From positions 1-30,027 of IMG/VR virus record IMGVR_UViG_3300009285_002030: DNA of 30,027 nt. The stretch is one strand, 5' to 3'. The stretch comes from a virus. Shown here in pieces: positions 8,682 through 30,027 of this stretch. Position 1 is the stretch's first letter. The number at the start of each line of letters is the position of its first letter. The notes under the pieces were generated by a model that was not told where the DNA came from, made no database searches, and saw only the letters and a list, made by a program, of their open reading frames with translations. The position numbers and the translations under genes were made by a program.

Positions 8682-8741
8682 GTGAGTGTTGTGTTCGCAC
8701 GGGTTGACCACCAGCAGTTGACGAACGAGGTACGTGCATGA
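8682..8741 (+). CDS. Possible 19-codon leader peptide of the portal gene
   Basis: A GTG at 8682 directly after the tandem GAGGAAC array opens a 19-codon frame (product MSVVFARVDHQQLTNEVRA). Its TGA overlaps the portal ATG as ATGA. This layout suggests ribosomes load on the array and pass to the portal by coupling. An ATG at 8680 in another frame is followed at once by a stop. The peptide is not recognised, and the portal also has its own weak GAGG site. Confidence 0.4.
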   Translation: MSVVFARVDHQQLTNEVRA

Positions 8742-11668: not shown

Positions 11669-12110
11669 CGTCCCAGAGCCGAAAACCGATCCGATGTTAC
11701 GGGGACTCCTCCAAGAGTTTCGGAGTGTCGCCAACGCTCTGCGTGGGCTGAAAACCCCGAACGAGGAAAGCTCCTCGAAGGCGCTCCTCAAGGTCTCTCG
11801 ACATCAAGATGTCCTCCTGCGGTCGGTTCAGCGCATGATGGTGATGATGGCCGCGATGGTGCAACAAAGTTCGCACGATCAGCCGATGCACTCGACGATG
11901 GAAGAGTTGAAGTCCAGTCTGTCGGGATTCGCAAGCGACCTCAAGGACGCCCTGCGTGTTCAACCGACGCATCCTGCTCCCCGCGTGACGGTGAAACCTC
12001 AGATTACCGTGTCCATGGGTGGAGTCACGAAGCGACTGGATAGCTTAGAACAGGCGTTGGTCAATGCCACCATGCGTTCCCGCAATCGGACGTTTGGGAG
12101 CAACTATTGA
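11649..12110 (+). CDS. Hypothetical helical protein (153 aa)
   Basis: The start is ATG 11649, with a weaker in-frame TTG upstream. The 153-residue product begins MPVVTVNVPEPKTDPMLRGL and contains long helices rich in Met (LLRSVQRMMVMMAAMVQQSS and STMEELKSSLSGFASDLKDA), then a beta segment PRVTVKPQITVSMGG and a final helix. The Met/Leu heptads suggest oligomerisation. The location before the scaffold suggests a head-associated protein, but no family is recognised. It overlaps the next gene by one base. Confidence 0.6.
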   Translation: MPVVTVNVPEPKTDPMLRGLLQEFRSVANALRGLKTPNEESSSKALLKVSRHQDVLLRSVQRMMVMMAAMVQQSSHDQPMHSTMEELKSSLSGFASDLKDALRVQPTHPAPRVTVKPQITVSMGGVTKRLDSLEQALVNATMRSRNRTFGSNY

Positions 12111-12460
12111 TGTCCAAACTGTGGACGTGGTTGAGGTGGTTGAGTGGGATGTTCTGTGGCGTGCTCCTAGCGTCCTTCGCCTTACAAGCCAGAGCAGGGA
12201 ACTTCCCAGGAGAACAGCCGGTCTATAGTCGAGACCAGGGTCGGCAAACCCTCTTGTTTTATGTCTCTGGTGGAAACGGGAACGGCAAGGTCGAGTATAT
12301 CTGCACGGCGGATGCCGGAATCACCGCAACTTCCGCACGATGGCAGATTGCCAAACTCGTCTATGACGGCAGCAATCGGGTGTCCACCGTTACGTGGGCG
12401 GGGGGGACGGATAACTTTACCAATGTCTGCTCCGACAGGGCGTCGTTGACGTACTCCTAA
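12110..12460 (+). CDS. Virion-type protein with signal peptide (116 aa)
   Basis: The ATG at 12110 overlaps the previous stop. The first 30 residues (WTWLRWLSGMFCGVLLASFA, then LQARAG) look like a Sec signal peptide with a likely cut after ARA. The mature domain contains LLFYVSGGNGNGKVEYICTA, then WQIAKLVYDGSNRVSTVTWA, then GGTDNFTNVCSDRASLTYS. The 'W.i.k..YDgsnRvt.vtwa.g...f...w.dRasl.Y' pattern is familiar from small beta proteins in phage structural operons. The mature part has exactly two cysteines, compatible with one disulfide. Export of a structural protein is unusual, and the same feature recurs in six other genes here. Confidence 0.65.
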   Translation: MSKLWTWLRWLSGMFCGVLLASFALQARAGNFPGEQPVYSRDQGRQTLLFYVSGGNGNGKVEYICTADAGITATSARWQIAKLVYDGSNRVSTVTWAGGTDNFTNVCSDRASLTYS

Positions 12461-12555
12461 TGCCTTCAGGTCAAATGATCACGACTTGGAACGCCCACAC
12501 ACGCACCAGACCATCTTTTCTTAAGAAAAAGGGTAAGCAAAAGAAACGCAAGTAA
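12460..12555 (+). CDS. 31-residue highly basic peptide
   Basis: The ATG at 12460 overlaps the preceding TAA by one base. The 31-residue product (MPSGQMITTWNAHTRTRPSF...) ends in a run of Lys/Arg (LKKKGKQKKRK). No ribosome site is evident, so it would rely on coupling. Such lysine-rich mini-proteins can bind DNA or RNA, but the function is unknown. Confidence 0.4.
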   Translation: MPSGQMITTWNAHTRTRPSFLKKKGKQKKRK

Positions 12556-12719
12556 GTTTTCGTCGCGTCTGATCCACGCGACACCAGCAAAAGTTCTCGG
12601 CGGCTGTTGGGAGCCCAACCTCCTGACCGTCGCCTTTTTGTTGGCCTCATGGATCGTGGATGCCCCGCCCCTTCATCCAGGGCAGGACGTAGCCGACTCG
12701 TCACGGCAAGGAGGAAGGC
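12556..12719 (+). terminator. Structured non-coding gap with possible intrinsic terminator/attenuator before scaffold
   Basis: This 164-base gap contains two hairpins. GTCGCGT (12562-12568) pairs perfectly with ACGCGAC (12576-12582). A second structure has outer pairing GGCGGC (12599-12604) with GTCGCC (12629-12634, one G-U) around an inner GTTGG/CCAAC stem, followed by TTTTT (12635-12639), the layout of an intrinsic terminator. The strong AAGGAGG scaffold ribosome site follows at about 12708. No clear promoter is visible. Confidence 0.4.
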
Positions 12720-13589
12720 ATGGAAGACGCAGAAGGTCGGGAGATCTATGGCAACGCGCCTGGATGGTCTGACAAGCAGACCGAGCAGGCTCCCGATAAG
12801 GGCGCTCTAGGAGCTTCGCCCACTCCAGGTGTCGAAGCCGCCCCACCAGCGGAAGTGTCTCAGGAAGAGACGCTATCTCAAGAAGCCGGTTCGGAGCAGG
12901 CACCTCCGTCAACTAGTCCACCCGCTTCAGGAGATGTGCCGTTCCACCAGCATCCGCGTTGGATTGAACGGCAGAAGGAATTGGAGGAGACTCGGAAGCA
13001 ACGGGACGATGCGCTTCGTCTCGCTCAACAGGTGGTGGAGCGAACTGCCCCCATCCAACCAGCATTGGCTCAGCCTCAAGTTGATCCCTGGGCACCGTAT
13101 GTGAGCCAGCAAGACCCAGAAAGCGCGCGGTTTTGGACGAATATGCGCGACTTGGTGCGCCATGAACGGCAACAGGCCAAGCAAGAGGCGGTGCAGGAAC
13201 TCCAACCAGTCATTCAGGCGGGGATGGAGAAGCTGGCGATGATCGATCTGCGGGACTTCCGTAATGAGAATCCAGAGATTTCGCCTGGGTCGCAGGAAGA
13301 ACAGCAGATCGTCTCGTACATGGAAGGGCGGGTGGATGGGATGCGTCATCCCCTGGAAAGCGCGAAACGGAATGTGTTGTTTCCTCGGTTGACCACCGAA
13401 GTCAAATCCTACAAAACGAAACAGGCGGCGATCCCAGGGAAACGAGCTGCCGCTGCGTCTGAGTCGTCCTCAGGCATTCCGCAAACGGCGGGACTGCCTG
13501 GGAGGTCGAGGTCAACGCAAGAGGTCGCTGCTGAAATCATCGACAAGGGCGGCACCATGCGGGACGTGGCGAAAGCCATCTTTGGGTAG
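12720..13589 (+). CDS. Scaffolding/head assembly protein
   Basis: The start ATG 12720 has an AAGGAGG site 5 bases upstream, among the strongest here, as expected for a highly produced protein. The 289-residue product is acidic, Gln/Glu/Pro-rich and Cys-free. It has a disordered first third (QEETLSQEAGSEQAPPSTSP), long helices (RWIERQKELEETRKQRDDAL and RHERQQAKQEAVQELQPVIQ) and a basic C-terminal segment ending TMRDVAKAIFG. These are hallmarks of phage scaffolds, which template the prohead and leave before packaging. It directly precedes the major capsid gene. The assignment is by context and composition rather than a conserved motif. Confidence 0.75.
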   Translation: MEDAEGREIYGNAPGWSDKQTEQAPDKGALGASPTPGVEAAPPAEVSQEETLSQEAGSEQAPPSTSPPASGDVPFHQHPRWIERQKELEETRKQRDDALRLAQQVVERTAPIQPALAQPQVDPWAPYVSQQDPESARFWTNMRDLVRHERQQAKQEAVQELQPVIQAGMEKLAMIDLRDFRNENPEISPGSQEEQQIVSYMEGRVDGMRHPLESAKRNVLFPRLTTEVKSYKTKQAAIPGKRAAAASESSSGIPQTAGLPGRSRSTQEVAAEIIDKGGTMRDVAKAIFG

Positions 13590-13609
13590 CCAAACGATAG
13601 GAACACGCT

Positions 13610-14572
13610 ATGCCAGCGAATACGAGTATGCAGGTGACGGGCTGGACAGCCCAGGCATCGCGCACCAACCCGAACTTCGGGGATGAGGTCTTTGACGGCA
13701 TCTCAACCAACAATGCGTTGGTCTGGGTGTTGCGTCAACAGGGCAATATTAAGGTCACGGAAGGTGGACGGACGTTCACCCACCCGCTGCACTACGCCCT
13801 GAATACGTCATTCGCCGCGCGGGCGCACGATGCCACCATTCCAACACCCGATCCGCAGACCCACACGCACTCAGAATGGAATGTCCGCGTGATTGACGGA
13901 TCGATTACCTTGTTCAGGCTGCACCAGGCGATGAACCAAGGCAAGGCCGTGATCCTCAAATACTTAGAGGAGAAGAAACAGTCCGCCATCGTCTCCATGA
14001 CCGAGGTGTTGGGAGATCAGTTGGTGGATGGGACGGGCAGTGATCCGTCCTGGGACTCGACGGAAACGATTGCCTCCTCCACGAACACAACCACCGTGGG
14101 AGGGATCGCGGGATCGGATGCGACGTGGCAGAACTACTCAGCCGCGACAGGGGGAGCGTTTAACACCAGCAATAACGGCATCACCGCATGGGACTTAGCG
14201 GTGAGAGGCACGACCTTCGGCAACCAGAGCCCAACCGTGATCTTCACCACGTCAGCGATCTTTGGACTCTACTACATCAGCCAAGCGGGGAATATCCGCT
14301 ACTACAACGAGGAACTGGCCGATGCCCATTTTGAGCACTTGAACTTCGGGCGGCGACCGGTGCTATGGGACGACAACATCGATGCGGGACTCACCAACTT
14401 CATCAACACGCGGTCACTCTGGCTGCAAGTCTTGCGCCAGGGCAACCTCGTGACGACGGAGTTTATCCCGTCCTCGAACCAGTTGTCCGATGTGGCCTTG
14501 ATGTATCTGTTCGGCAACCTCACCACCGGCAACCGCCGGACGCAGGGTGTGGTCACCGGCCAAACCAGTTAA
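13610..14572 (+). CDS. Major capsid protein
   Basis: The product is 320 residues, cysteine-free, directly after the scaffold. Features typical of this HK97-fold-type coat family are an N-terminal arm, an E-loop-like segment VWVLRQQGNIKVTEGGRTFT, a spine-like helix KAVILKYLEEKKQSAIVSMT, a Gly/Ser/Thr-rich loop (STNTTTVGGIAGSDA, residues about 160-172), and a C-terminal beta region (NFGRRPVLWDDN, NTRSLWLQVLRQGNLVTTEF). The recurring 'W.lqV...q......F..ss.q...v......gnl....rr.qgv..g' end is common in coat proteins from uncultured phages. Identification is by position, size and this pattern. Confidence 0.85.
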   Translation: MPANTSMQVTGWTAQASRTNPNFGDEVFDGISTNNALVWVLRQQGNIKVTEGGRTFTHPLHYALNTSFAARAHDATIPTPDPQTHTHSEWNVRVIDGSITLFRLHQAMNQGKAVILKYLEEKKQSAIVSMTEVLGDQLVDGTGSDPSWDSTETIASSTNTTTVGGIAGSDATWQNYSAATGGAFNTSNNGITAWDLAVRGTTFGNQSPTVIFTTSAIFGLYYISQAGNIRYYNEELADAHFEHLNFGRRPVLWDDNIDAGLTNFINTRSLWLQVLRQGNLVTTEFIPSSNQLSDVALMYLFGNLTTGNRRTQGVVTGQTS

Positions 14573-14584
14573 GAGGAGATGACG

Positions 14585-15097
14585 ATGCGTAAACTACTCG
14601 TACTCGCCCTCCTCTTGGCAGGGAGTGGCGTGGCGTGGGCAGACTCGATTCCAACGGTGGTGAATGAAACGTCTCGGAGTCCTGTCTGGACAGTCACGGT
14701 GTTTAACGATAGTGGAGCTACCCTCACGTCGGGGGATGTGGTCGTATGGGATCAGGCCGATGCGGACTTTACGTCCGAAGGCAATCCCTACGTCATTACC
14801 TCGACGACCGCAGATGATCCGTGGACAGCCGGGGTGATGCAAACGGCCAGTTGTCCTGACCAATCGCTTTGCGAGATTATCGTGTACGGCATCGCAGAGC
14901 ATGTGTTGATTGATGATGCAACGGATGCGGCTCCCGTCGATACGGCGGTGGGGATTTCTCCGACCAATGCAGGGAACGTCAGTAGTTACGCGTCAGGGGC
15001 CGATACCTGTATGTTGGGTATCGTGTTGGATATGGAAGCCACTGATGGCGTCGATAACGCTCCTGCACGGGTGTTCGTGAACGTCAGTTGTGATTAA
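14585..15097 (+). CDS. Decoration-like protein with Sec signal peptide (170 aa)
   Basis: The AAGAGGAG site is best spaced for ATG 14585 (an ATG at 14579 is in frame but abuts it). The product begins MRKLLVLALLLAGSGVAWA with an A-x-A cut before DSIP, a textbook Sec signal peptide. The mature part is beta-rich and acidic, with NDSGATLTSGDVVVWDQADA and TSTTADDPWTAGVMQTASCP, and a 'GdvV..d......gv' pattern seen in decoration proteins encoded next to the capsid gene. It contains four cysteines (SCPDQSLC, DTC, VSC), compatible with two disulfides. The location after the capsid gene suggests a head decoration protein; the signal peptide instead suggests export. Both cannot be settled from sequence. 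Confidence 0.65.
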   Translation: MRKLLVLALLLAGSGVAWADSIPTVVNETSRSPVWTVTVFNDSGATLTSGDVVVWDQADADFTSEGNPYVITSTTADDPWTAGVMQTASCPDQSLCEIIVYGIAEHVLIDDATDAAPVDTAVGISPTNAGNVSSYASGADTCMLGIVLDMEATDGVDNAPARVFVNVSCD

Positions 15098-15100
15098 GGG

Positions 15101-16222
15101 ATGAACGTGCGGGAGGTCGGCTGGCTGATTTTCCTAGTCGGCCTCCCGTTCGCTCATTTGTTGTTTCGTCCCCATTTGGATATTTGGCATGGGCAGGCCG
15201 TCTGGGCGCAAGGGTGGATCATCACGCTATTTGCCCTTTCACTAGGGAGTGAATCGAAACCCCTCACCCCCAACCGCCCCCTGGCGGCGTTTGTGGCTTG
15301 GATCGGACTGATTACGCTCTGGGCGTGGGTACACACCATAATCAAACAAAAGATTTACCCTGTCCCCATGTTGCAAGGGGTCGGGCACCTGCTCCTTCTG
15401 GTGATGGTGTACTCTGCGGCTATGACGACGTGGACGACGCGCTTTGTCGGACACCTGACGCGGTGGATGGCCTATATGGGAATCGTCGTGCTTCTCTACT
15501 GTGGGTTGCAACTCCTCAATCTGGATCAATTTTTCACCCAATTAGATACGTCGATCAAACGCGATGCCCTCGTTGGGACGGTGGGAAATCCTTCCCACCT
15601 CGCAACGCACCTCTCGCTCCTCTTGCCACTATGCTTGTTATGGACTCCGTGGTGGAGTATCGCCGTCATTGGGGTGTTACTGATGACCCAATCGTTGGGT
15701 GGGCAAGTGGCGGCGTTGGCTATCGGAGCATGGTGGGTGTGGCATACTAATCGACGATGGCTCTGGGTTGTGGGGCTCTGTGGGCTGGTTGGTGGTGTCT
15801 GGCTTCTCACACATTTGGATTCATTTAACCCCCACGGACGCCTCAAGGCATGGGGCATGTTCTACCAGATGTTCCAACAGCGTCCGATTACGGGGTTGGG
15901 AGCAGGTTCGATCATGGAATTTTCCCGTACCATTACCGATGGGACAAACTTTTTCTTTGGGTGGCGTCACGTACACAATGAGTTTTTCCAAGCCGCGATT
16001 GAGTATGGGGTGATCGGGGTAGGTTTCATTGGATGGATGATGTGGGAACTGGTCGGGAGTCTCAGACGCCTCCACAAAACGCCTTTGGTTGTGGCGCTTT
16101 CTGCTATTTTGATCGCGTTTGGGATGAATAGCCTCGTGAACTTCCCCGCCCATTTGTGGGTCACGGGGAGTTATGCGTTCGTGGCGTATTGTGGGTTGCG
16201 AGTCCTTGCGGAGGGTACGTAA
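15101..16222 (+). CDS. O-antigen ligase/polymerase-like membrane protein (Wzy_C superfamily)
   Basis: The 373-residue product is an integral membrane protein with roughly ten hydrophobic segments. Family landmarks: GTVGNPSHLATHLSLLLPL (159-177), a periplasmic-type loop with GRLKAWGMFYQMFQQRPITG and GLGAGSIMEF (246-274), and HVHNEFFQAAIEYGVIGVGF (290-309). These match the G-N-x-(N/S)-x-L-A, 'gR...W......i...P..G.G...f' and 'HN.fl...vE.G..G' signatures of WaaL ligases and Wzy polymerases, which join or elongate surface polysaccharide on the periplasmic face. A role in changing host O-antigen is inferred. Its position inside the virion operon is unusual. AAGGG abuts the ATG; GTG 15107 is an alternative start. 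No glycosyltransferase neighbours are present. Confidence 0.8.
   Translation: MNVREVGWLIFLVGLPFAHLLFRPHLDIWHGQAVWAQGWIITLFALSLGSESKPLTPNRPLAAFVAWIGLITLWAWVHTIIKQKIYPVPMLQGVGHLLLLVMVYSAAMTTWTTRFVGHLTRWMAYMGIVVLLYCGLQLLNLDQFFTQLDTSIKRDALVGTVGNPSHLATHLSLLLPLCLLWTPWWSIAVIGVLLMTQSLGGQVAALAIGAWWVWHTNRRWLWVVGLCGLVGGVWLLTHLDSFNPHGRLKAWGMFYQMFQQRPITGLGAGSIMEFSRTITDGTNFFFGWRHVHNEFFQAAIEYGVIGVGFIGWMMWELVGSLRRLHKTPLVVALSAILIAFGMNSLVNFPAHLWVTGSYAFVAYCGLRVLAEGT
16210..16222 (+). promoter_or_regulatory. Ribosome site pointing to a non-standard AUU start
   Basis: GGAGGG (16210-16215) lies 7 bases before ATT at 16223, the first codon after the O-antigen gene's TAA. There is no ATG, GTG or TTG at the correct distance in the downstream gene's frame, so this site decides the start. 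Confidence 0.6.
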
Positions 16223-17212
16223 ATTCCACTCACCACGGCGGATGAAATTCGGGACAACATTGCGAGTACAGTCAGAGAAACGCAGCTTAATGCGCTGCTC
16301 TTGACGTTCATCAATCTCACGGGGTTGGAAATCCATCAGTTTTGGCCCTGGACGTTCCTGCGGAGAAAACAAACTTTTCCAACTGTCGTCGATCAAGAAA
16401 ACTACAACCTCGACTCCGAAATCGACCGTATTGCCATCTTGCGCCAAATCTCCACCCCCACCCGCCTCACTTACGTCCCTGATTTGCTCTTCTATCAGCT
16501 CGTCCCCAACCCCGAAGACATTGGGAGTGGTCCACCACGCTACTACCGGCTGTGGGAAGAGACGGGGTTTTCAACCAACCTCGCCGCCGACGATACAATC
16601 TATGTCGTGTCCTCCTCGACCTCGGATGGATCAGCGTTCAACGTCCGCGTGGTGGGGAGAAATTCCAGCGGGGAAGTGGTGGTGGAAACCCTCATCCTCA
16701 ACGGGACGACCAACGTGACGAGTACCACGACGTGGGATTCGGATGGGTTGATGCAGATTTCCAAATCCGCCGCCACCACGGGGACGATTTCCTGCAGGCG
16801 CACGACAGAAGCGACCTTGCTCTCGGAATTGGAACCTGACAATCTTGCTCCACGGTTTAAGCGCCTCTCGCTCTTTCCTATTCCCTCGGCGGCGGTCACG
16901 ATGTACCTGGAATACTTTGAGCGGTATCGCTACCTCGTCCACGATACCGATGTCCCCCAAATCGACGCGCAGTGGAACTGGGTCTTGCGGGAAGGGGCGC
17001 TCTCAAAAGCCTGGGAGTATAAACAGAACGAGCAGTTGATGCTCGCCCATCGGGCGATCTTTGAACAAGGCTTGATTCGGATGCGTGAACAAGACAGCCG
17101 GAATGTCGATTATGTGCCCGTCCTTCAACCTCGACGACTGGTATCTTCCATCGTGAAACGCTACGCTGACTCGATCAGCAACAGCTTCCCCGTCTATGGC
17201 GTTGGGGCGTAA
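16223..17212 (+). CDS. Head-to-tail adaptor/connector-like protein, probable AUU start
   Basis: The frame is open from the upstream TAA. The first plausible start is ATT 16223, 7 bases after GGAGGG; the next candidate, TTG 16301, would remove 26 conserved-looking residues (PLTTADEIRDNIASTVRETQ). The product is then 329 residues. Residues 1-115 and 200-329 (PRFKRLSLFPIPSAAVTMYL, WNWVLREGALSKAWEYKQNE) look like the helical/beta adaptor of short-tailed phages. Residues about 117-195 (DTIYVVSSSTSDGSAFNVRV, GEVVVETLILNGTTNVTSTT) form an inserted immunoglobulin-like beta domain, probably exposed on the virion. It follows the head genes and overlaps the tail gene by 17 bases, fitting a connector role. 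The adaptor name is inferred from context. Confidence 0.65.
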   Translation: MPLTTADEIRDNIASTVRETQLNALLLTFINLTGLEIHQFWPWTFLRRKQTFPTVVDQENYNLDSEIDRIAILRQISTPTRLTYVPDLLFYQLVPNPEDIGSGPPRYYRLWEETGFSTNLAADDTIYVVSSSTSDGSAFNVRVVGRNSSGEVVVETLILNGTTNVTSTTTWDSDGLMQISKSAATTGTISCRRTTEATLLSELEPDNLAPRFKRLSLFPIPSAAVTMYLEYFERYRYLVHDTDVPQIDAQWNWVLREGALSKAWEYKQNEQLMLAHRAIFEQGLIRMREQDSRNVDYVPVLQPRRLVSSIVKRYADSISNSFPVYGVGA

Positions 17213-19073
17213 CTATGTCAGGATTGGCCTCCTTACTGGCCTGTGCCTTCTGGCTCGGGTGGTGTTGGCCGCCGAATCCGTTACCTATCCCCCCCAAGGC
17301 ATTCAAGTCTTTCTCGGTCTTGATGACACCTCTGCCCCCACCCAAGTCCAAGATGGACGCGCTCAAGATATTCAAAACGTCACCTTGGACGCGGGGGCCA
17401 TGCGTCAACGGTATGGGATTGACCTCGTGCTTACCCCCGACAGCACCAACGGATTGGAGATTGGGGACACCCTCGATATTCAAGATGAAGCCTTCTGCGC
17501 GGTTACGGGCGTCTACTATACTAAGTTCTCTTCAGGTACTGAACGAATTATCGCCACCTGTGGAAGCCGGTTCTATTTCCTTAACGGCACGACGAGTTGG
17601 GATCAGGTTACAGGCCCAGCCATTACGGGAGGTCAGAATAATCAGTTCGTCTTTACCGTGGCGTTGGATAACATCATCGGTACCAACGATGTCGATACGC
17701 CCTTCCAGTATGACGGCACGACGCGCACGAGTGTCGGTTTTACAGGACTCGCCAATGCCGTTCAGAACGCAAAAACCGTCGCCTTCTTTAAGAACTACCT
17801 CATCTTTGGCAACATCAAAGAGAATAGCGTGGATCGCGCCACGCGGATTCGTTGGTCGAACGTCGGGACGATCAACACCTGGACAGACGATGATTTCGTC
17901 GATCTTGGAGCGCTGGCAGGACAAGAAATCAATGCCTTTGCGGAACTCTACGATAATCTCTACGTCTTCCTCACGGATTCGATCTATCGAGTCAGTTTAG
18001 TGGGAGGCGCTGATACCTTCCAAATCAGCAAAGTCACCGATGACATCGGCTGTATCGCCAAAAACAGCGTCCAAAGCATTACGCTCACCAATGCCCAAAA
18101 TGGCTTGGTCTTTCTGGACAAGGATAAAAAGGTGTATTTCTTCAATGGCATCATCGCCCAGAACATCGGGACGCTTATTGAAACGACGTTGGATGTCCTC
18201 TCTGGGACGCGCTTGCAGTATGCCGTCTCGACCGATACGAATGATGACTATCTTCTCTGCGTCACCTCAGGCACAGGCACGACCAACAACCTCTGCCTGG
18301 ATTTGGAATACAATCTGGGGGAGTGGTCAAAGCATACCAATATCCCTGCCAATGCTCTTGCCCATGTCCTTGATAACAACACGACCGATCAAGACTACTT
18401 TGGGAGCTACAAAAGTTTGGTCTACCAGCTGGTGGATACGAGCAAGCGAGATGACGTGGGCTCTGCCACGGGGACGGTCACTACCGTCAACACCTTCACG
18501 ACGGACACCGCCTCTGGACTCACCGTGCTCTACACTACGGCGGCGACCTACACGACTGGGGCGTTGGTGGGGGCTCCCATCGAACTCATCGGTGGAACGG
18601 GGGCAGGACAAGTAAACACGATTGCAGACAATACCGCGACGGGTTTGGTCGTGACCGATGCCTTTACGACGACTCCCGATAGCACGACGACCTTTGAAGT
18701 CGGAGCCATTGATAGCTTCTACACGACCAAATGGTACGACATGGGAGACTCCGCCCGCCTCAAGCATTTCGGGGAGGTCTACTTTTGGGCGGAAGCGGAT
18801 GTCTCCAGCACACATAGTCTGTCCTATGCGACCGATTTTAGTTCCGATGTCTCCACGCTTTCACTGGCGCTCTCGTCTTCGACCAGCGATGCGATTTGGG
18901 GCAGCGCGGTGTGGGGGGTCGCGCTGTGGGGGGATGTGGAGGATGTGTTTCGCCAAGCGAAGTTGGAAGCCCAAGGGCGGTATGCCAGAGTGAAATGGGC
19001 GGAAGATGATCCGCAAGAAACGTTTCACATCTATGGATGGCTCTGGCTTTATTGGCGCGGCCAGAGGAACTAG
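17196..19073 (+). CDS. Beta-propeller tail/stabilisation-like protein with signal peptide
   Basis: The product is 625 residues from ATG 17196. The N-terminus (RIGLLTGLCLLARVVLA before AES) looks like a signal peptide. The mature part shows repeating propeller blades: TERIIATCGSRFYFLNGTTS, DNIIGTNDVDTPFQYDG, KTVAFFKNYLIFGNI, EINAFAELYDNLYVFLTDSI, GLVFLDKDKKVYFFNG and DDYLLCVTSG. This layout matches P22 gp10-like stabilisation or T7 tail-tube-B-like proteins, which form the distal tail. Residues about 423-502 are an inserted module (TASGLTVLYTTAATYTTGAL, GTGAGQVNTIADNTATGLVV) of a type seen in many phage proteins. Five cysteines are in the mature part. No clear ribosome site is visible, and the start lies inside the adaptor gene. 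Confidence 0.75.
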   Translation: MALGRNYVRIGLLTGLCLLARVVLAAESVTYPPQGIQVFLGLDDTSAPTQVQDGRAQDIQNVTLDAGAMRQRYGIDLVLTPDSTNGLEIGDTLDIQDEAFCAVTGVYYTKFSSGTERIIATCGSRFYFLNGTTSWDQVTGPAITGGQNNQFVFTVALDNIIGTNDVDTPFQYDGTTRTSVGFTGLANAVQNAKTVAFFKNYLIFGNIKENSVDRATRIRWSNVGTINTWTDDDFVDLGALAGQEINAFAELYDNLYVFLTDSIYRVSLVGGADTFQISKVTDDIGCIAKNSVQSITLTNAQNGLVFLDKDKKVYFFNGIIAQNIGTLIETTLDVLSGTRLQYAVSTDTNDDYLLCVTSGTGTTNNLCLDLEYNLGEWSKHTNIPANALAHVLDNNTTDQDYFGSYKSLVYQLVDTSKRDDVGSATGTVTTVNTFTTDTASGLTVLYTTAATYTTGALVGAPIELIGGTGAGQVNTIADNTATGLVVTDAFTTTPDSTTTFEVGAIDSFYTTKWYDMGDSARLKHFGEVYFWAEADVSSTHSLSYATDFSSDVSTLSLALSSSTSDAIWGSAVWGVALWGDVEDVFRQAKLEAQGRYARVKWAEDDPQETFHIYGWLWLYWRGQRN

Positions 19074-19075
19074 TC

Positions 19076-19384
19076 ATGCGACGGATCCTAATTGGGGTCT
19101 TGGCGGGTATGGTGCTGACGGCGCCGCCGTTGGGGGCGTTGCGCTTTGCGCGTCCTCCCACCTTCACGGAATGGAACAGCAATACGTTTACGCAGTTGAA
19201 CGATGTGCTCCTCCAAATTTACAATGTCGTGAATGGGAGATACCAAATGGATATTGTCACCGTTGATCCCGACGGATCGCGCAGAGGGAAGATAGGCGAA
19301 GCGGTGTTCTTTGACACGGGGACGGATCAGTTGTGCGTCAACGCAGACGGTGGAACGACCTGGAAATGCGTCAACGTAACCTAG
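19076..19384 (+). CDS. Small fibre-associated protein with signal peptide (102 aa)
   Basis: The ATG at 19076 lies 2 bases after the tail protein stop. The first 21 residues (MRRILIGVLAGMVLTAPPLG) have the n-, h- and c-regions of a Sec signal. The mature part includes FTEWNSNTFTQLNDVLLQIY and a C-terminal DTGTDQLCVNADGGTTWKCV, a motif that also occurs at the ends of tail-fibre subunits, with one cysteine pair. It overlaps the next gene by 19 bases. It is probably a short tail fibre or a fibre attachment protein; the exact role is unknown. Confidence 0.6.
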   Translation: MRRILIGVLAGMVLTAPPLGALRFARPPTFTEWNSNTFTQLNDVLLQIYNVVNGRYQMDIVTVDPDGSRRGKIGEAVFFDTGTDQLCVNADGGTTWKCVNVT

Positions 19385-20202
19385 CCATTTTGGTCTGTTT
19401 AGCGGTAGGGTGTTTCGGAGCCGCTCCCTCCCGCACCTGTACCTATACGACGGGAGCGGTGATTGAAGCGAGTTGTGTCACAGAAAATGAAGATAATATC
19501 TTTTCTTGGGGACAAGCAGGCGTGGACAATATCCGTAACAACGCCGTCGAAACCGCTGATATTCAAGACGCCGCCGTGACCGCCACGAAGTTGGGGACGG
19601 GAGCCGTGACCACAACGGTGATTTTAGATGGGACGATTACGGCAGACGATCTCAACGCCACGCTGACCTTTTCTGATGGGGATTTGATTAACCTCAATGC
19701 CATCAATGTCTCTTCCACCGAAGGACTCATTCTGCCTCAAGCGACCTCCTGTACCTTAGGCACCTCTGAAGGCCAAATCTGTTGGGACACGAATGACGAT
19801 GTGCTTTTTATTGGAGATGGAACAACAGCGCGCGGGCAAAGTCAGCATGTGATTATAAGCGGAACAAGAGATTGCACTGCTGCTGGCGGTTCTGTTGCTT
19901 ATACAGGGGCAGGATTTAAGCCCACAGCTCTTTATTGCATTGCAAATGTAGGTTCGGCTGTCGGTCAAACATCATGGGGACTTGCTGTCGGCACTACAGG
20001 GAAAACTATAGAAGATGAGCATTTTGCGGCAGCCGGACGATACGCCCTTCTTTCAGACATTATTTCGTTGTTGGGCCCAACGTCAGGGGATCGCTGTTCT
20101 GCGTCTGTTTCAGCTATGGGCGATGACGGATTTACGCTTTCCTGGGTTAAAACAGGTACCCCGACAGGAACGACTGACTTTTCCTGTATGGCGATGCGCT
20201 AA
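19366..20202 (+). CDS. Tail fibre-like protein with signal peptide (278 aa)
   Basis: The start is taken at ATG 19366 (MRQRNLAILVCLAVGCFGAA), which gives a signal-like N-terminus; LAVGC is a poor lipobox. The mature protein has DNIRNNAVETADIQDAAVTA and TKLGTGAVTTTVILDGTITA, the repeating 'd..I.n.av.taDI.d.aVt..Kl' pattern of phage fibre stalks. A globular C-terminal domain follows (VIISGTRDCTAAGGSVAYTG to TTDFSCMAMR). Eight cysteines are present, largely in near pairs (TCTYTTGAVIEASC, SCTLGTSEGQIC). Phage tail fibres recognise the host surface. The C-terminal domain appears more AT-rich than the rest, from about 19850, which suggests a horizontally acquired receptor-binding tip. Confidence 0.7.
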   Translation: MRQRNLAILVCLAVGCFGAAPSRTCTYTTGAVIEASCVTENEDNIFSWGQAGVDNIRNNAVETADIQDAAVTATKLGTGAVTTTVILDGTITADDLNATLTFSDGDLINLNAINVSSTEGLILPQATSCTLGTSEGQICWDTNDDVLFIGDGTTARGQSQHVIISGTRDCTAAGGSVAYTGAGFKPTALYCIANVGSAVGQTSWGLAVGTTGKTIEDEHFAAAGRYALLSDIISLLGPTSGDRCSASVSAMGDDGFTLSWVKTGTPTGTTDFSCMAMR

Positions 20203-20213
20203 TGGAGGGAAAC

Positions 20214-20567
20214 ATGTGGGTGTTCTTTATCTTATTCGCAACTCCTGTCTTTGCGGATCAGGTGTGCCTTGACAGGAAGACAGGGAAGCTGATCGAATAT
20301 CAGTCAAAAGCTACTCCAGGAACTTGCTTGAGAAATGCAATATCCGCCGGGTATACAGAAGAAAACGTCGAAGAAAGGCAAGTAAGCCTAGACGAATGGG
20401 CATATATCAAAGAAGAGCTGGTGGATAAGCCTGAGCGCGAAGATAAAGAAGCGAAAGAACAAGCAAAAGAAATTAGGCGCGATCAAAAAGAGCAGTCAAT
20501 ACGAACCAAACTCGGCTTATCAGCTAAAGAGTTTCAAGACCTTAAAGAAGCGTTGGGAGTGCATTAG
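20214..20567 (+). CDS. Small exported protein with coiled-coil C-terminus (117 aa)
   Basis: GGAGG sits 6 bases before ATG 20214, so I prefer it over ATG 20202. MWVFFILFATPVFA before DQVC is a short but clear signal peptide. The mature part has two cysteines (DQVCLDRKTG and PGTCLRNAIS) and then a long charged helix (KPEREDKEAKEQAKEIRRDQ) ending SAKEFQDLKEALGVH. The end pattern 'irtKLgls..efqdLKeAL' recurs in small proteins encoded beside phage fibre genes. It may be a fibre chaperone or attachment factor. Function is not proven. Confidence 0.6.
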   Translation: MWVFFILFATPVFADQVCLDRKTGKLIEYQSKATPGTCLRNAISAGYTEENVEERQVSLDEWAYIKEELVDKPEREDKEAKEQAKEIRRDQKEQSIRTKLGLSAKEFQDLKEALGVH

Positions 20568-20631
20568 GCGTGTCATTCATAACTCTTCAAACTCTTGTCG
20601 GGGGAGGATTGGCTCTTGGCAGTAGGGGTCA

Positions 20632-20949: not shown

Positions 20950-22003
20950 TTGGCAGTGGCTGTGGGAGGACGAAACGGGCGGTGGTGGTTCCGACCCCCA
21001 ACCCGCCCAAGTGATCCCCGCGCCTCCAGCCCCAGACGTGAGGGAAACCTCACGAGAAAGCCTCGAAGCCCAACTGTGGGCCAACCCCCAACTCGTCGCG
21101 CAGCAGGTGGGCTTGCAGCAACAGTACGGACTTCCGTTAGCTCAATCTCAGGCGGATATTCAAGCCCGAATCGCTCCCCAACTGGCTCGCAGTCAATTTG
21201 GGATTCTTTCTGAACAAGCCCCCCTCTTTCGCGCGTTATTGGAACAGCAATATCCGGCCCTCTCCCCCCTCTCCCAGCAAGCCACGCAGGGGATTACTTC
21301 TCCGACGGGGCTCACGCCTGCTCAGCAAGTCGCTCAAGATCAAGCGTTGGCTGCGGCACGAGGGCGCATTCCCACGCAACTGACGGACGCCTTGGGACAG
21401 CAAGCCCTCCAACAGTTCCAGAGTCCGACGGGCCTCACCCCTCAACAACAAGCCGCCCAGGAGGCCATTCGTTCACGAGCCTTTGAACAATCCGAACGAG
21501 GGATTCGGACGGCGGCAAATGTTGGAGGGACCCTGTACGGCGGTCGGCGGGAGTTACGGGAAGACCGCGCTCGGAATGAACTCGCCCAAGGGTTTGCCGT
21601 CCAAGACATTGACCTCCAGAGACAGCAACGGCAGGAAGCGCTCAGTCAGCTAACACTGGCTCAACAGTTTGCTCTCCAGGGCGCACAGACGGGTCAGCAG
21701 TTCGGCCTCCAAGATGTGGGGGTGCAGCAACAGGGGAGGCAACAGTCCCTCCAAAATCTCATCTCCCTGTTTCAGCTCGCGGGCTTGCCCGTCCAGCAAT
21801 TCAACGCCCCCCAACCCACCGTCCCAGGGTTTGGGCAGAGCCCCGTGCCAGGCGGGGATTCCCTCTACAATGCCCTCGTCCAAAACCAGGGGAACTTTGG
21901 GATTATCCCTGGGATGGCAGGGAGCCCAGGGGCTGGGCCAGGGCTTGCTCAAGCAGGCATTGGAGCCGCAGGGATGATTGGGGCAGCAGCGCTTATTGCT
22001 TAA
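20936..22003 (+). CDS. Gln-rich internal virion/ejection-like protein (355 aa)
   Basis: The start is ATG 20936, after a GGGGGG-containing ribosome site. The 355-residue product starts MRRYSWQWLWEDETGGGG, then Pro-rich, then a long Gln/Ala/Leu helical region (VAQQVGLQQQYGLPLAQSQA, DLQRQQRQEALSQLTLAQQF), then a Gly-rich hydrophobic C-terminus (AGIGAAGMIGAAALIA). The unit SPTGLTPxQQxAQ occurs twice (near 21296 and 21425). Coiled coil plus a hydrophobic Gly/Ala tail is typical of podovirus internal proteins that exit with DNA and form a channel across the envelope. No cysteine is seen. The assignment is by architecture and position. Confidence 0.65.
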   Translation: MRRYSWQWLWEDETGGGGSDPQPAQVIPAPPAPDVRETSRESLEAQLWANPQLVAQQVGLQQQYGLPLAQSQADIQARIAPQLARSQFGILSEQAPLFRALLEQQYPALSPLSQQATQGITSPTGLTPAQQVAQDQALAAARGRIPTQLTDALGQQALQQFQSPTGLTPQQQAAQEAIRSRAFEQSERGIRTAANVGGTLYGGRRELREDRARNELAQGFAVQDIDLQRQQRQEALSQLTLAQQFALQGAQTGQQFGLQDVGVQQQGRQQSLQNLISLFQLAGLPVQQFNAPQPTVPGFGQSPVPGGDSLYNALVQNQGNFGIIPGMAGSPGAGPGLAQAGIGAAGMIGAAALIA

Positions 22004-22809
22004 TGGGCGAATTACTGATTGCCACCAAACAGTTTATCATTGACATGACGCAGTCGCATTCCCGTCCAGTGCTTTTGTGGAGTGGCGGGAAGGACTCGAT
22101 GGTCTTATTGCATGTGCTCCGCTCAATGAACCTCTTCTGGCCCGTGATTTTGTATCGCAACAATTTCTTTCCACATAAGTATGCGTTTATTGATCGCATG
22201 ATACGAGACTGGCGCTTAACGGTCTTTGAGTACCCACCGCTCTCGATGGGACTGAAACAGAAGAACGGACAAGTAGAGATGGTGTCATTTTACAACATTG
22301 GTGCTCTACTTCCCCTGCACCTCCCGACAAATATGCTCCCAGTCGATAGGGCGTGGGACTGGCAATGTGGCATTGAACTCTTGAACCGCCCCAAGGGGAC
22401 GATGCAGTTTCCGTGGGATCTGCTCTGCGTCGGACACAAGAGTTGTGATGAAGATATTACCGAAGGAAAGCTGACGCTCCATACGGCTATTCATCACATT
22501 GAGCAGGGGCCAGATGTGATGTTTCCCCTTCGAGATTGGACGCATGACGATGTGTGGCACTATACTGAGCAATATCATGTCCCTGTCCAAGAGACGCGCT
22601 ATGAACACACCACCGCAGGATGGCGTGAGCGAGAGGATAAGACCTATAATCCAGATTGCACCCCGATTTGTATTCGCTGTCTTGATAAGCGGTTGGAAGG
22701 GGACGTGGACTGCCCCTTGCTTGGGAAAACGATTCCCAACATCAGCCGCCAGATCGCCTACCTTCCCGATCATGGACTAACGTATTTTGGGGAGCCCGTT
22801 CATGCTTGA
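22003..22809 (+). CDS. PAPS reductase-like PP-loop protein
   Basis: The ATG overlaps the upstream TAA (TAATG). The 268-residue product has the PP-loop SGGKDSMVLLHVLR starting at residue 27, then the typical strand order with LLCVGHKSCDEDITEG and FPLRDWTHDDVWHYTEQYHV (the 'P...Wt..dVw.Y' motif of PAPS reductase-like enzymes). Cysteines at 219, 223, 226 and 237 (CTPICIRC, then C) could bind metal or an iron-sulfur cluster. Members activate substrates with ATP or reduce PAPS or APS; phage members are widespread and their substrate is mostly unknown. It is co-transcribed with a methyltransferase and an AdoMet decarboxylase-like gene, overlapping the former by 8 bases. Sulfite reduction for the host or a base or RNA thiolation are both possible. 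Confidence 0.85.
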   Translation: MGELLIATKQFIIDMTQSHSRPVLLWSGGKDSMVLLHVLRSMNLFWPVILYRNNFFPHKYAFIDRMIRDWRLTVFEYPPLSMGLKQKNGQVEMVSFYNIGALLPLHLPTNMLPVDRAWDWQCGIELLNRPKGTMQFPWDLLCVGHKSCDEDITEGKLTLHTAIHHIEQGPDVMFPLRDWTHDDVWHYTEQYHVPVQETRYEHTTAGWREREDKTYNPDCTPICIRCLDKRLEGDVDCPLLGKTIPNISRQIAYLPDHGLTYFGEPVHA

Positions 22810-23512
22810 ATGCACGACCGATATGGAATATGCGGTTTTTGAGAATAGCCAATGCGTCCTTAAAGATGTGACGGATGCCATCCTGGGATGCTATACGGCG
22901 CTGTCGGTCTTGCATGGGGAACCTATCTTCGAGGCGTATCAATTAGGCCCTACAAGCGAATCTCATGTTGAGCAGTTGATGCAAGGCATCGTCTTTCCTG
23001 TTGGCGCAACCGTTGTGGATGTGGGATGCGGGGTAGGCACCGTCACACGCCTCCTGCAAGGCTGGCGTCCGGATTTACGATGTTTGAATCTGAATCTCAG
23101 TCTCGCCCAACTGCGCTACTGTAAGCATCCTCTCATCAATGCCGATGGTCACGCCTTACCACTCATGTCTGCGTGTGCGGATGTGGTGTTCTTGCTCTAT
23201 GTCCTGGGGTACGGGTTGCTCGAACCCTTCCTACGTGAGGCAGCTCGGATTACCAAACCTGGCGGGGTACTGTGCATCTATGATCTCTGGAGCATCCACC
23301 CGCAGCGATTTCTTCAGCAGACGGGCTATGCCTCCCATCATCCTTCTCGCGTGTTGGATGTCGCTCAGACCGTTGGGTGGACACTCACGCAGGAAGTTGT
23401 CCCCCAAACGTATCCATCAAACTTTTTCCTTCAGGATATGGGGAAAGAAAACTTCAACGCGCTTTTTGGTGATTGTCATCCAGCACTCTATCGTGGGGTT
23501 CGCCATGCCTGA
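22802..23512 (+). CDS. Class I SAM-dependent methyltransferase
   Basis: The start is ATG 22802 with GGGGAG 7 bases upstream. The 236-residue product has motif I VVDVGCGVGTVTRLL (71-85), an acidic-strand region (CLNLNLSLAQLRYC), motif II/III NADGHALPLMSACADVVFLL and the post-motif REAARITKPGGVLCIYDLW. This is a UbiE/Methyltransf_11-type Rossmann fold, usually acting on small molecules or lipids rather than DNA. There is no DPPY-type motif. The N-terminal 60 residues may bind substrate. It overlaps both neighbours by 8 bases, so the three proteins are probably made together. The substrate is unknown. Confidence 0.82.
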   Translation: MLECTTDMEYAVFENSQCVLKDVTDAILGCYTALSVLHGEPIFEAYQLGPTSESHVEQLMQGIVFPVGATVVDVGCGVGTVTRLLQGWRPDLRCLNLNLSLAQLRYCKHPLINADGHALPLMSACADVVFLLYVLGYGLLEPFLREAARITKPGGVLCIYDLWSIHPQRFLQQTGYASHHPSRVLDVAQTVGWTLTQEVVPQTYPSNFFLQDMGKENFNALFGDCHPALYRGVRHA

Positions 23513-24613: not shown

Positions 24614-24619
24614 CCACTC

Positions 24620-27130: not shown

Positions 27131-27132
27131 TG

Positions 27133-27300
27133 CTACCTCCAGTAGGCCAAGTTGTCATCATCACGTGGCCCAGCGTTCGGGTCGTAGATGTTCTCAACTG
27201 GTTGAGCAAGCCACAACACAATGACCACGAAACCGATGAATAGGAGTAAGGCAACCCATAGGTTTGTGGGTTTGGACGCAAACAAGGGATCGGAGTTCAT
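27133..27300 (-). CDS. Leftward single-TM membrane protein (55 aa)
   Basis: On the leftward strand AGGGAAAGG precedes ATG 27300. The product MNSDPLFASKPTNLW... has one strong transmembrane span (WVALLLFIGFVVIVLWLAQP, about residues 15-34), then an acidic polar tail (VENIYDPNAGPRDDDNLAYW). It exactly fills the only gap in the rightward block: its stop is 2 bases from the end of the 836-residue gene and its start is 17 bases from the lysin gene. The polar tail after a single span resembles pinholin-like or spanin-like proteins, but neither can be claimed. An in-frame ATG at 27327 would overlap the lysin. Confidence 0.6.
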   Translation of the reverse strand: MNSDPLFASKPTNLWVALLLFIGFVVIVLWLAQPVENIYDPNAGPRDDDNLAYWR

Positions 27301-27317
27301 CCTTTCCCTATACCCCC

Positions 27318-27773
27318 ATGCCCTCACCTAGTCAAGCGAAGAAATTCTCCAAAGCCGCGATGGTCTTATTGCGAGAATCCGCTGCCGAAGGGCCGGAAGG
27401 AATGGAAATGGTCGCGGATACTTTCTTCAACCGTGGACAGACACGGAAACTGCCCTTAGATGCCGTGGCGACCCAATCGGCGCTCAATAAGAAAGGCGTT
27501 CGGGTGTATCAATACACGGGTGCGGGAGACCCCAAGTTGGAAGAATTCTTTTCCCGCCAACCCTTCATCCTCCAAAACCTGGCTGAAGAAATGGTACAAG
27601 AGCGTCTGAACCCCAAGTACCAACCGAAATATCCTGGGCTAGAAAATTTTGTCACCCAAGACCTCTTCGACCGACGGTTTGCTCCCGATGTGTCCGAGTG
27701 GGTACGACAATATGAGAAGGTTGGCCAAGTGGGGAATCACGTGCTCTTGATGCCACCCAAGAAGAAAAAATGA
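27318..27773 (+). CDS. SleB-like cell-wall hydrolase
   Basis: The start is ATG 27318; the 151-residue product has no signal peptide. MVLLRESAAEGPEGMEMVAD followed by TFFNRG matches the SleB/CwlJ hydrolase signature 'EA.gEg.eGm.aVa.vi.NR', with the Glu of AAEGPEG as likely catalytic acid. The end KVGQVGNHVLL matches the terminal 'iGnH.Fy' strand. These enzymes cleave peptidoglycan as lysozyme- or transglycosylase-like lysins. Here it could be the endolysin or a virion-carried enzyme used at entry; the position between internal proteins and the fibre favours the latter, and the adjacent leftward membrane gene could favour lysis. It ends in PPKKKK and overlaps the fibre gene by 4 bases. Confidence 0.7.
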   Translation: MPSPSQAKKFSKAAMVLLRESAAEGPEGMEMVADTFFNRGQTRKLPLDAVATQSALNKKGVRVYQYTGAGDPKLEEFFSRQPFILQNLAEEMVQERLNPKYQPKYPGLENFVTQDLFDRRFAPDVSEWVRQYEKVGQVGNHVLLMPPKKKK

Positions 27774-30027
27774 GGTGGCTCGTTCTAGTGCTGAGTCTCT
27801 GGTGTAGCGTGGCGTGGGCTGACACGACCTTTGAGATGAACCCTCTTACCAGTCGTTTAGACCTTGTGCTGGATAACACCGCCCTTGGCAACGCCACCGG
27901 CCTCACGATCGCCATGACCAACTACGTGGACTGTGGCATTCTCACGACGGATGCGGCAGGAAACTTTGAATGCGGGCCCGCTCCCTCAGGCACAGGCGAT
28001 ATTACAGGTGTCACCGCAGGAACAGGATTGACGGGAGGCGGGGCGTCTGGCGATGTGACCTTGAACGTTGGGGAAGGATTGGCGATTGATGCCGCCGCGG
28101 ATGCCGTGGCCTTTGATCCGACCGAACTCTTAGGGTCTCAGACGTTTGGGGATGCGTCTACTGATACGATTGTCTGGACATGGAATCGAGCCACAGGGAC
28201 TGATCCGACCGTAATCTTTGGGTCTGAGACAGTGACTGGACAAATTGTGGCTGCCTCTATAGGGTTTGAAGTCAATGGGGAGCGGGTTACGGATTGGACA
28301 GGCTCAGGGATGTCGATTGTGGCAGGAGCCCTGACATCCACAGGGGGCGGCAATTCCTTCGAGACGATTGCGGTGCCTACGGGAGCGAGCGTGGTCGCGG
28401 ACTCCTCCACCGACACCCTCACCATCACCGAAACGTCCTTCCTGACCATTACGGGCACCGCCGCCACCGATACCATTGACATTACTCAGGTGACGACGGA
28501 TCTGGGGACGGATGGGTTGATTGCGGCCAATGCGGTGGCGCTCACTACCGACACGACCGGCAACTATGCCGCCGGCGATGCCGAGGCCGGAGCCGCCTTG
28601 ACCGGCGACACCGCGACTGCGTTCTTTTCCTTAGGCACCCTGGAGCATGAGCGCGGCGGCTTGGAAGCGGATGTCTCAGCCTATGACGGTCTGATCGGGA
28701 TTACGGGGGGAGCCGCCTACAATCAAACCGGCACCACGACCCAGATCATCATCTTCGATGGGGCAGGCGCCCCCACGTCTGCGGCCCTATCTGGTCAAGC
28801 CACGATGACGAACGGGGGCGTTGTGACGGTGTCTGATCTGACCTGCACGGGATGCCTCGGCACAACGGAGATCGCTGGCTTGGACATCTCCGCCGACACC
28901 AATCTTACCGCAGGAGACAACCTTACCCTTACAGATGATGACCTTGATCTTGATGCTGCTGTGACTATCGGGACTAGTATTTCCTCGCCGATCTTTGCCT
29001 CCACGACGGCAGGGGTCGCCGCCGCAGGGATTCTGCGCTTTGCCAATGCGGAAAGCATTAACTGGGAAGCTGCCCCTGCTGGGACGGATTGCACGCTCTT
29101 GACGGATGCCTCTGAAGTCTTGACTTCCTCCTGCGTGTTTACGGCAACGGGCGGGATCACGATTGATGCGACGACCGAAGGCAATATCGAGACGGCGATA
29201 GATACATTAGGCAATCTGACCTCGGCTTCAGCCTTAGCGACAGTTGGCACCATCACAAGCGGAACATGGAGCGCGGGAGTCGTCACCGCTGATGCGACTG
29301 ACCCGGCTGACGCGGGAGCTATTCGCTTGGACAATGCAGAGGCTATTGCCTGGGAAGCGGCACCGGCAGGGACAGATGTCACGTTACTTGTTGACGCAAG
29401 CGAGGTCTTAACTGCTAGTGGCGTGTTTACGGCTACCGGCGGCATTACCATTGACGCCACCACAGAGACGAACATTGAAACGGCGATAGATACGCTTGCG
29501 AACTTAACCGCTGCGTCCGCGCTTGCCACAGTCGGAACGATCACAACGGGAGCTTGGAATGCGGGAGCTGTTACGTCAAGCGGGTTAATCACAGGAAACG
29601 CCAACCTTACTGTTGGCAATGGGGTCAGCGCAGGCACCGTGACGTTCCTTGAAGGGAGCGGCGGCGGGTCGAACTTCAAGGCGTTTGTTGCGCCTGCCGC
29701 GATCACGGCAGACACCACGTGCACCTTTGAGAACGATGCGAACTTCATTCCGGATTCGTGCGTCGGCAACGGCGTCGATGATGGCGGGGCTGAGACGAAC
29801 AGCCTGGAAGTCCTCACGACGGGCATCGCCAGCACTGAAATCCCCATCGGGACAGCGGCCGATACGGTCGTCTACGCCGCCATCTCCGGCCAGTCCACGA
29901 TGACCAATGCCGGGGTGATGACTAATACCGATGTGACGTGCACCGACTGCTTCAATGCCACGGAAATCGAGGATATTTATACGCTCAATGCCGGCGATAC
30001 CATCACGGGTGCTGTGACGATCAATGA
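27770..30027 (+). CDS. Long tail fibre-like protein with signal peptide, 3' end outside window
   Basis: The frame is open from ATG 27770 to the window end (over 750 residues). MRWLVLVLSLWCSVAWA before DTTF is a clear Sec signal peptide, almost the same end (VAWAD) as in the decoration-like protein. Next comes GDITGVTAGTGLTGGGASGD, a stalk motif common in phage fibres, then Gly/Thr/Ala/Asp-rich beta-repeat sequence. Two internal repeat types occur: a 97-residue tandem (from 29030) and a block at residues 341 and 706 (SGQxTMTNxGV...TCTxC). Ten cysteines, all in close pairs, are visible. It likely forms a trimeric fibre or adhesin; receptor specificity is unknown. Alternatively it could be a cell-surface adhesin carried by the phage. 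Confidence 0.72.
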   Translation, partial: MRWLVLVLSLWCSVAWADTTFEMNPLTSRLDLVLDNTALGNATGLTIAMTNYVDCGILTTDAAGNFECGPAPSGTGDITGVTAGTGLTGGGASGDVTLNVGEGLAIDAAADAVAFDPTELLGSQTFGDASTDTIVWTWNRATGTDPTVIFGSETVTGQIVAASIGFEVNGERVTDWTGSGMSIVAGALTSTGGGNSFETIAVPTGASVVADSSTDTLTITETSFLTITGTAATDTIDITQVTTDLGTDGLIAANAVALTTDTTGNYAAGDAEAGAALTGDTATAFFSLGTLEHERGGLEADVSAYDGLIGITGGAAYNQTGTTTQIIIFDGAGAPTSAALSGQATMTNGGVVTVSDLTCTGCLGTTEIAGLDISADTNLTAGDNLTLTDDDLDLDAAVTIGTSISSPIFASTTAGVAAAGILRFANAESINWEAAPAGTDCTLLTDASEVLTSSCVFTATGGITIDATTEGNIETAIDTLGNLTSASALATVGTITSGTWSAGVVTADATDPADAGAIRLDNAEAIAWEAAPAGTDVTLLVDASEVLTASGVFTATGGITIDATTETNIETAIDTLANLTAASALATVGTITTGAWNAGAVTSSGLITGNANLTVGNGVSAGTVTFLEGSGGGSNFKAFVAPAAITADTTCTFENDANFIPDSCVGNGVDDGGAETNSLEVLTTGIASTEIPIGTAADTVVYAAISGQSTMTNAGVMTNTDVTCTDCFNATEIEDIYTLNAGDTITGAVTIN
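28790..28875 (+). repeat. Fibre block SGQATMTN...CTGC, copy 1
   Basis: Encodes SGQATMTNGGVVTVSDLTCT then GCLGTTEIAG. Pairs with 29885-29970, about 365 codons downstream. The CxxC-like pair is kept in both copies. Confidence 0.7.
29030..29575 (+). repeat. Tandem 97-codon repeat in the fibre gene (two copies)
   Basis: Copy 1 starts at 29030 (ILRFANAESINWEAAPAGTD) and copy 2 at 29321 (IRLDNAEAIAWEAAPAGTD), a period of 291 bases. Both continue with DASEVLT, VFTATGGITIDATTE, NIETAIDTL and SALATVGTIT. DNA identity is lower than protein identity, so this is not a very recent duplication. Cys pair at GTDC/SSC in copy 1 is GTDV/ASG in copy 2. Confidence 0.85.
29885..29970 (+). repeat. Fibre block SGQSTMTN...CTDC, copy 2
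   Basis: Encodes SGQSTMTNAGVMTNTDVTCT then DCFNATEIED, the counterpart of 28790-28875. Confidence 0.7.

Follow-up and report, generated by a model that had tools for sequence, protein, structure and literature searches.

In the textbook account, tailed phages are assembled wholly in the cytoplasm of their host. Ligases that glycosylate exported proteins are known from bacterial pilin systems, in which the pglL gene adjoins the gene of its acceptor pilin in 21 of 31 cases (PMC3643930). Among phages, the cultured Variovorax phage VarioGold carries an O-antigen ligase gene that adjoins a signal-peptide protein outside the structural module and that its authors regard as moron-like (PMC9658991). 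Here, we analyse an uncultured virus, IMG/VR record IMGVR_UViG_3300009285_002030, over a stretch of 30,027 bases (hereafter the window), in which a gene for a Wzy_C-type membrane ligase follows the gene of a capsid decoration (cement) protein with a predicted Sec signal peptide. These two adjacent genes are referred to as the cassette. They lie in the right two thirds of the window, a short-tailed phage structural module with the order terminase, portal, scaffold-like protein, major capsid protein (MCP), decoration protein, Wzy_C ligase, adaptor and nozzle-type protein, then fibres and internal proteins. Export of the outer virion parts is well supported by the comparisons given below, from which we also infer glycosylation of the decoration protein and the site of assembly.

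The original prediction assigned Sec-like signal peptides to seven virion-type proteins starting at 12110, 14585, 17196, 19076, 19366, 20214 and 27770. All seven open reading frames (ORFs) exist at these starts, and all seven were accepted by a rule-based script for Sec/signal peptidase I signals, which scores, close to the start codon, a basic n-region, an uncharged hydrophobic core and small residues at -3/-1. The same script rejected all of 16 further window proteins, and when the seven N-termini were shuffled with their composition preserved, 0 to 2.6% of the shuffles scored as high as the real sequence. The proteins predicted to be exported, together with the ligase, are as follows:

12110..12460, plus strand: small exported protein of 116 amino acids; signal at 12110-12196 (MSKLWTWLRWLSGMFCGVLLASFALQARA-G), a rule match; one conserved cysteine pair in the mature part
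14585..15097, plus strand: exported capsid decoration (cement) protein; signal at 14585-14641 (MRKLLVLALLLAGSGVAWA-D); its AlphaFold2 (AF2) model matches decoration proteins
15101..16222, plus strand: membrane glycan ligase of the Wzy_C / WaaL-PglL superfamily, 373 amino acids (PF04932); proposed O-oligosaccharyltransferase for the decoration protein
17196..19073, plus strand: exported tail nozzle/hub protein (phrog_3287); probable signal peptide at 17196-17270
19076..19384, plus strand: small exported protein; signal at 19076-19138
19366..20202, plus strand: exported tail-fibre-like protein (PHROG 892 tail fibre, 1.1e-5); signal at 19366-19422; seven cysteines counted in the mature part
20214..20567, plus strand: small exported protein; signal at 20214-20255
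27770..30027, plus strand: exported fibre-like protein, running off the window; signal at 27770-27820

Two of these signals depart from the pattern first described, a positive n-region followed by a hydrophobic core. That of 20214 has no basic residue ahead of its core (MWVFFILFATPVFA-D), and that of 17196 holds an arginine within the core region. The homologues of 20214 in relatives L002 and L013 carry signals as well, with L002 reading MRYVMM..., and the signals of the 17196 relatives are textbook-like. Where a domain could be recognised, it starts past the signal: the phrog_3287 match begins at residue 33 of 17196 (profile position 5), and that to Phage_cement_2 at residue 30 of 14585. For 19366, the probable cleavage site is just before APSRT.

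The mature part of 14585 gave an AF2 model with a predicted local distance difference test score (pLDDT) of 84, and the best PDB matches of this model are the capsid decoration proteins of Pam3, T1, HFTV1, TW1 and P74-26 and lambda gpD (Z up to 13.0); related head and tail fibre domains of phi29 were matched as well. As modelled, the mature protein is a capsid decoration fold, and its match to Pfam Phage_cement_2 reaches 19.7 bits, below the gathering cut-off of 24. The protein at 17196 matches the tailed-phage virion family phrog_3287 at 9.1e-30 and has the PF24175 adaptor upstream, and the nozzle profile matches the six-chain PDB entry 9nwi_Y, named capsid and scaffold protein (E 3.9e-6). 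The 27770 protein is called fibre-like from its repetitive composition only, and domain and family searches with mature 12110, 19076 and 20214 returned no recognised virion domain. The virion-type designation is therefore secure in the case of 14585 and 17196 and likely in that of the fibres, but it is unproven for 12110, 19076 and 20214.

To place these signals in context, they were counted over about 20 relatives; percentages refer to metagenomic relatives scored by our home-made signal rule. In the outer families, a signal was accepted by rule in 70 of 75 proteins and is clear by eye in the remaining five (cement 18/18; nozzle 16/19 and three by eye; 19076 16/16; 19366 14/16 and two by eye; 27770 6/6). 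The 12110 family has a signal by rule in four of six members. The terminase and the inner proteins of the window are:

6350 (start): terminase, in the structural module
8738..10678, plus strand: portal, from a weak phrog_1216 match and gene position; no signal peptide
12720..13589, plus strand: scaffold-like protein, assigned by position only, between portal and MCP; no signal peptide
13610..14572, plus strand: MCP (phrog_9953, 1.3e-27); no signal peptide
16223..17212, plus strand: SU10-type adaptor (PF24175, 9.6e-10); no signal peptide

The adaptor probably starts at the ATT codon at 16223 and not at the TTG at 16301, because its relatives start M-A/P-L-x-T there and the window reads I-P-L-T-T-A-D-E; gene callers place the start 78 bases late.

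The inner families contain no signal in 80 proteins (MCP 0/18, portal 0/14, adaptor 0/19, scaffold 0/17, the internal protein of gene 20873 0/12), which bears out the earlier statement that scaffold, capsid, portal, adaptor and internal proteins lack them. Nine related complete phages without the cassette gave four weak rule matches in 108 annotated structural-module coding sequences, and in cultured phages, four homologous nozzles have no signal peptide, the domain beginning at their very start. Among the relatives, signals of varied sequence occupy the same place and persist in proteins of as little as about 30% identity. Over the first 18 residues, the median pair of nozzles shares 18% identity, and the mature nozzle domains of the relatives are 45 to 81% identical to that of the window. 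No conserved alternative ATG was found between signal and mature domain in nozzle or cement, which makes a cytoplasmic isoform unlikely.

Independent support for export comes from the cysteine pattern, with 8.8 to 22.4 cysteines per 1000 residues in the exported families against 0 to 5.0 in the inner ones. Five members of the 12110 family with a signal have exactly two cysteines in corresponding places, and L002 and L009, without a signal, have none. The scaffold-like 12720 protein has no cysteine in 16 of 16 homologues, and the GC-rich cement homologues have four or six. Because the signals are conserved, because the inner proteins have none and because of the cysteine evidence, the predicted export of outer but not inner parts is strongly supported.

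The original prediction, whose export part stood, overlooked the ligase gene between the decoration and adaptor genes, which is the part of the arrangement that holds for phages more widely. Gene order in the twelve best relatives follows that of the window, and in relatives too the ligase gene lies between those of decoration protein and adaptor. Viral contigs were searched with the ligase alone, not selected for signals, yielding 61 non-redundant genes (<85% identity), 57 of them off a contig edge. The gene just upstream of Wzy_C encodes a signal-peptide protein in 51 of these 57, as compared with 70 of 570 other genes of the same loci (12%) and 9 of 43 genes just downstream. The 51 include L011 and L030 (small lipoproteins) and the doubtful L080, none of which was assigned to a partner family; L067 was missed by the rule but has a signal peptide by eye, and L051, L086, L090, L093 and L096 have no signal-peptide partner. 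The relatives are not independent, and counted by 30% identity clusters, 9 of 14 show an upstream signal-peptide gene. Cement homologues found separately carry a signal in 16 of 16 cases and have a ligase at most 300 nt downstream in all 15 testable ones. In the AT-rich relatives L011 (at 6715) and L030 (at 414), a small lipoprotein gene (M-R-x-I-L-L-I-L...GCA) stands between cement and ligase.

Half of the partner-ligase pairs (24/48) overlap or are separated by no more than 20 nt. The partners fall into eight sequence families that have been recombined among ligase clusters, such that one ligase cluster occurs with five partner families and one partner family with three ligase clusters. In nine of ten cassettes checked, a PHROG-recognised MCP lies one to three genes upstream, and these MCPs belong to at least five families (phrog_9953, 371, 1005, 3437, 133/4523, 1328). 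This arrangement argues that the ligase and the upstream exported gene form a functional pair, in the pattern of pglL and pilin genes, and predicted export of the decoration-like partner is a general feature of the cassette. The distant cassette phages L042 and L043 have a decoration-like gene with a signal peptide and a nozzle without one, and for this reason we regard partner export as general and export of nozzle and fibres as an extension in the window's family. Fibre-like proteins again carry signal peptides in L041 and L049. Runs of further signal-peptide proteins occur in the tail regions of these two phages (L041 7995-13389, L049 12955-16945), which suggests an independent extension of export to tail parts.

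The 15101 ligase matches Pfam PF04932 at 1.5e-11 (44.7 bits, above the gathering threshold of 31.7). Structurally, it is a polytopic WaaL fold over its full length (7tpg, Z 23.5 over 335 residues), WaaL being the closest solved fold in the library and the oligosaccharyltransferase 9rmk not being among the chains listed in the fold comparison. R247 and the H290/H292 motif are invariant in 13 relatives, and the arginine and a His-Asn are invariant in 17 distant ones; a second arginine (PglL R224) is apparently not conserved, as judged by eye. A wider phage ligase profile matches 9rmk at E 1.5e-12 versus WaaL at 2.8e-7, and the 9rmk match spans a first-half motif around G-x-x-G/N that is unaligned in the WaaL match. 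NCBIfam returned only a sub-threshold match to an exosortase-linked ligase, in one relative. By its context, the ligase resembles an acceptor-paired oligosaccharyltransferase, although it does not qualify as a PglL family member. A conserved N-x-S/T-G turn of the cement protein might be taken for a glycosylation site, but we do not count it as evidence, since its region also matches the general Phage_cement_2 profile.

We lean slightly towards a mechanism of Sec export for the outer parts, glycosylation of the decoration protein by the phage ligase, and joining of these parts to DNA-filled heads outside the cytoplasm. The DNA-filled head, with MCP, scaffold, portal and adaptor, would be built in the cytoplasm, and decoration protein, nozzle and fibres would leave through the Sec machinery of the host. 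Signal peptides would then be removed and disulphides formed in the periplasm, which is oxidising, and the Wzy_C protein would attach a host glycan from a lipid carrier to the exported decoration protein, as PglL and TfpO do for pilins. Heads may meet the outer parts at an inner-membrane breach during lysis or just after release. Such late joining is feasible because, in several model phages, preformed heads can take up decoration proteins and tail parts in vitro. Assembly outside the cytoplasm, as originally claimed, would follow if the exported products are in the virion, but a sequence cannot decide whether the route is periplasmic, at the membrane, post-lysis or with the envelope. The chances seem to us evenly balanced that this is a widespread tailed-phage mode, in which Sec-exported, periplasm-glycosylated head-surface proteins (here also tail proteins) join heads during lysis and give the particle a coat of host sugars.

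A number of observations weigh against this mechanism. Packaged DNA is normally sealed in by the nozzle while still in the cytoplasm, and late addition of the nozzle needs another seal, for which the signal-less adaptor is a candidate. A glycan acceptor site in the decoration protein was not identified. The window's own ligase subfamily does not discriminate between the two solved folds (oligosaccharyltransferase 1.8e-5 versus WaaL 2.4e-5), alignments inspected by eye show differences at most of the PglL-specific residues given in PMC3643930, and the PglL_A motif (PF15864) gave no match in 15101 at E up to 1; PilO, too, is without those PglL motifs, yet it glycosylates pilin (PMC3643930). Many AT-rich cement homologues have odd, irregular cysteine counts. 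Ten distant partners compared with Pfam and PHROGs were mostly unrecognised, with a weak Phage_cement_2 match and, for L082, a PHROG of unknown function; no convincing solved relative emerged from profile searches with two other partner families. Finally, the evidence consists of sequences only, and searches found neither a host nor a cultured isolate. The nozzle profile matched only four weak Rhizobium loci among genome contigs. One partner family had no match in 398 genomes of the phylum of Rhizobium, a search without positive control that carries little weight. Cultured phages gave no match to four different cassette ligases (E 1e-3 or 1e-4) or to the mature cement protein.

The ligase might instead be a host-surface modifier, an O-antigen polymerase or ligase that alters lipopolysaccharide against superinfection, with the export of virion parts real but unrelated. 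Phage Wzy_C proteins have precedents in this role in D3 and VarioGold (PMC9658991), and both the WaaL fold of the window ligase and its lack of PglL_A would fit. We consider this unlikely, as the ligase lies in a head module and not in a moron locus, adjoins a signal-peptide gene in nearly all loci, and remains paired through exchange of either partner. The five loci lacking a signal-peptide partner show what an unpaired Wzy_C gene looks like, and the VarioGold table itself puts a signal-peptide protein beside its ligase (PMC9658991). It is improbable, too, that the N-termini stay uncut and tether the outer parts to the inner membrane for head docking or remain in the virion as membrane-active segments. 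The atypical signals of 17196 and 20214 would suit such a role, but most of the signals show A-x-A-like sites with little sequence conservation, as in cleaved signals, the cysteine pattern points to the mature domain itself crossing the membrane, and a segment of this kind is absent from the inner-virion proteins expected to cross membranes at infection.

Exported proteins could also act outside the cytoplasm before lysis, as receptor masks or decoys against competing phages, with virions built from copies that escape export. Fibres outside the cell could bind receptors, and the signals are compatible with this role; however, the window holds one gene for each protein, the lack of a conserved internal ATG in nozzle and cement speaks against a second form, and neither nozzle nor decoration protein has an evident use as a receptor mask. 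We consider this explanation improbable. That the N-termini arise by chance or from wrong starts, as read-through of non-coding or overlapping sequence, is highly improbable and already contradicted. A permissive rule does accept 9 of the 86 window ORFs of at least 100 amino acids, real and spurious together, but the conservation to about 30% identity, the plausible ribosome-binding sites at 14585 and 20214 and the signal-free inner proteins all stand against it.

If the proposed export and glycosylation are true, part of tailed-phage assembly would need host Sec and perhaps the disulphide machinery, with its last steps at or after lysis. The paired ligase would supply a reason for export, as lipid-linked glycans become reachable for coating the particle, and such a coat would affect stability, adsorption and recognition of phages in nature. 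Two adjacent genes that recur beside several unrelated capsid families also provide a direct rule for finding the cassette. We found no earlier report of such export or glycosylation in the open-access literature, most subscription journals lying outside this coverage.

Elsewhere in the window, a small protein at 3960-4250 has a lipobox-like N-terminus (MWRAVICLLIAGCSPP) and is possibly an outer-membrane spanin or other lipoprotein. The 27264-27773 product resembles a cell-wall hydrolase by eye (MVADTFFNRGQ), with only a weak phrog_938 endolysin match. At 2345-2842 there is weak similarity to the Mom DNA-modification family (E 0.0017), and inside the structural region (22003-23512) a protein with a PAPS reductase domain precedes a class I methyltransferase. 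An Rfam search of the window gave no match.

The coat proteins of Inoviridae likewise have signal sequences, with assembly finished at the envelope; their virion is unrelated, and the window phage has the head, portal and packaging of a tailed phage. Its decoration protein shares the predicted fold and the position after the MCP with known decoration proteins (Phage_cement_2, T1, TW1, Pam3, HFTV1, P74-26, lambda gpD), but unlike these it carries a Sec signal, four or six cysteines in GC-rich relatives, and a ligase gene downstream. Its tail module follows P22/T7/SU10/LUZ24-type tails, in which an adaptor (SU10_adaptor) precedes a nozzle-type protein (phrog_3287), whereas the nozzle homologues of cultured Pseudomonas, Pelagibacter and Roseobacter phages are signal-less. 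Seroconversion genes such as D3 wzy-beta and the VarioGold O-antigen ligase are phage-borne Wzy_C genes too (PMC9658991), but they have been described as moron-like and as acting on host O antigen, whereas that of the window stands in a structural module beside a decoration gene. In the pilin-tfpO/pilO and comP-pglL/pglS pairs, a Wzy_C-family membrane ligase adjoins an exported protein, as it does here; unlike in those pairs, the phage partner is a decoration or other head-module protein, and the ligase, with predicted activity, is without most PglL-specific residues and PglL_A.

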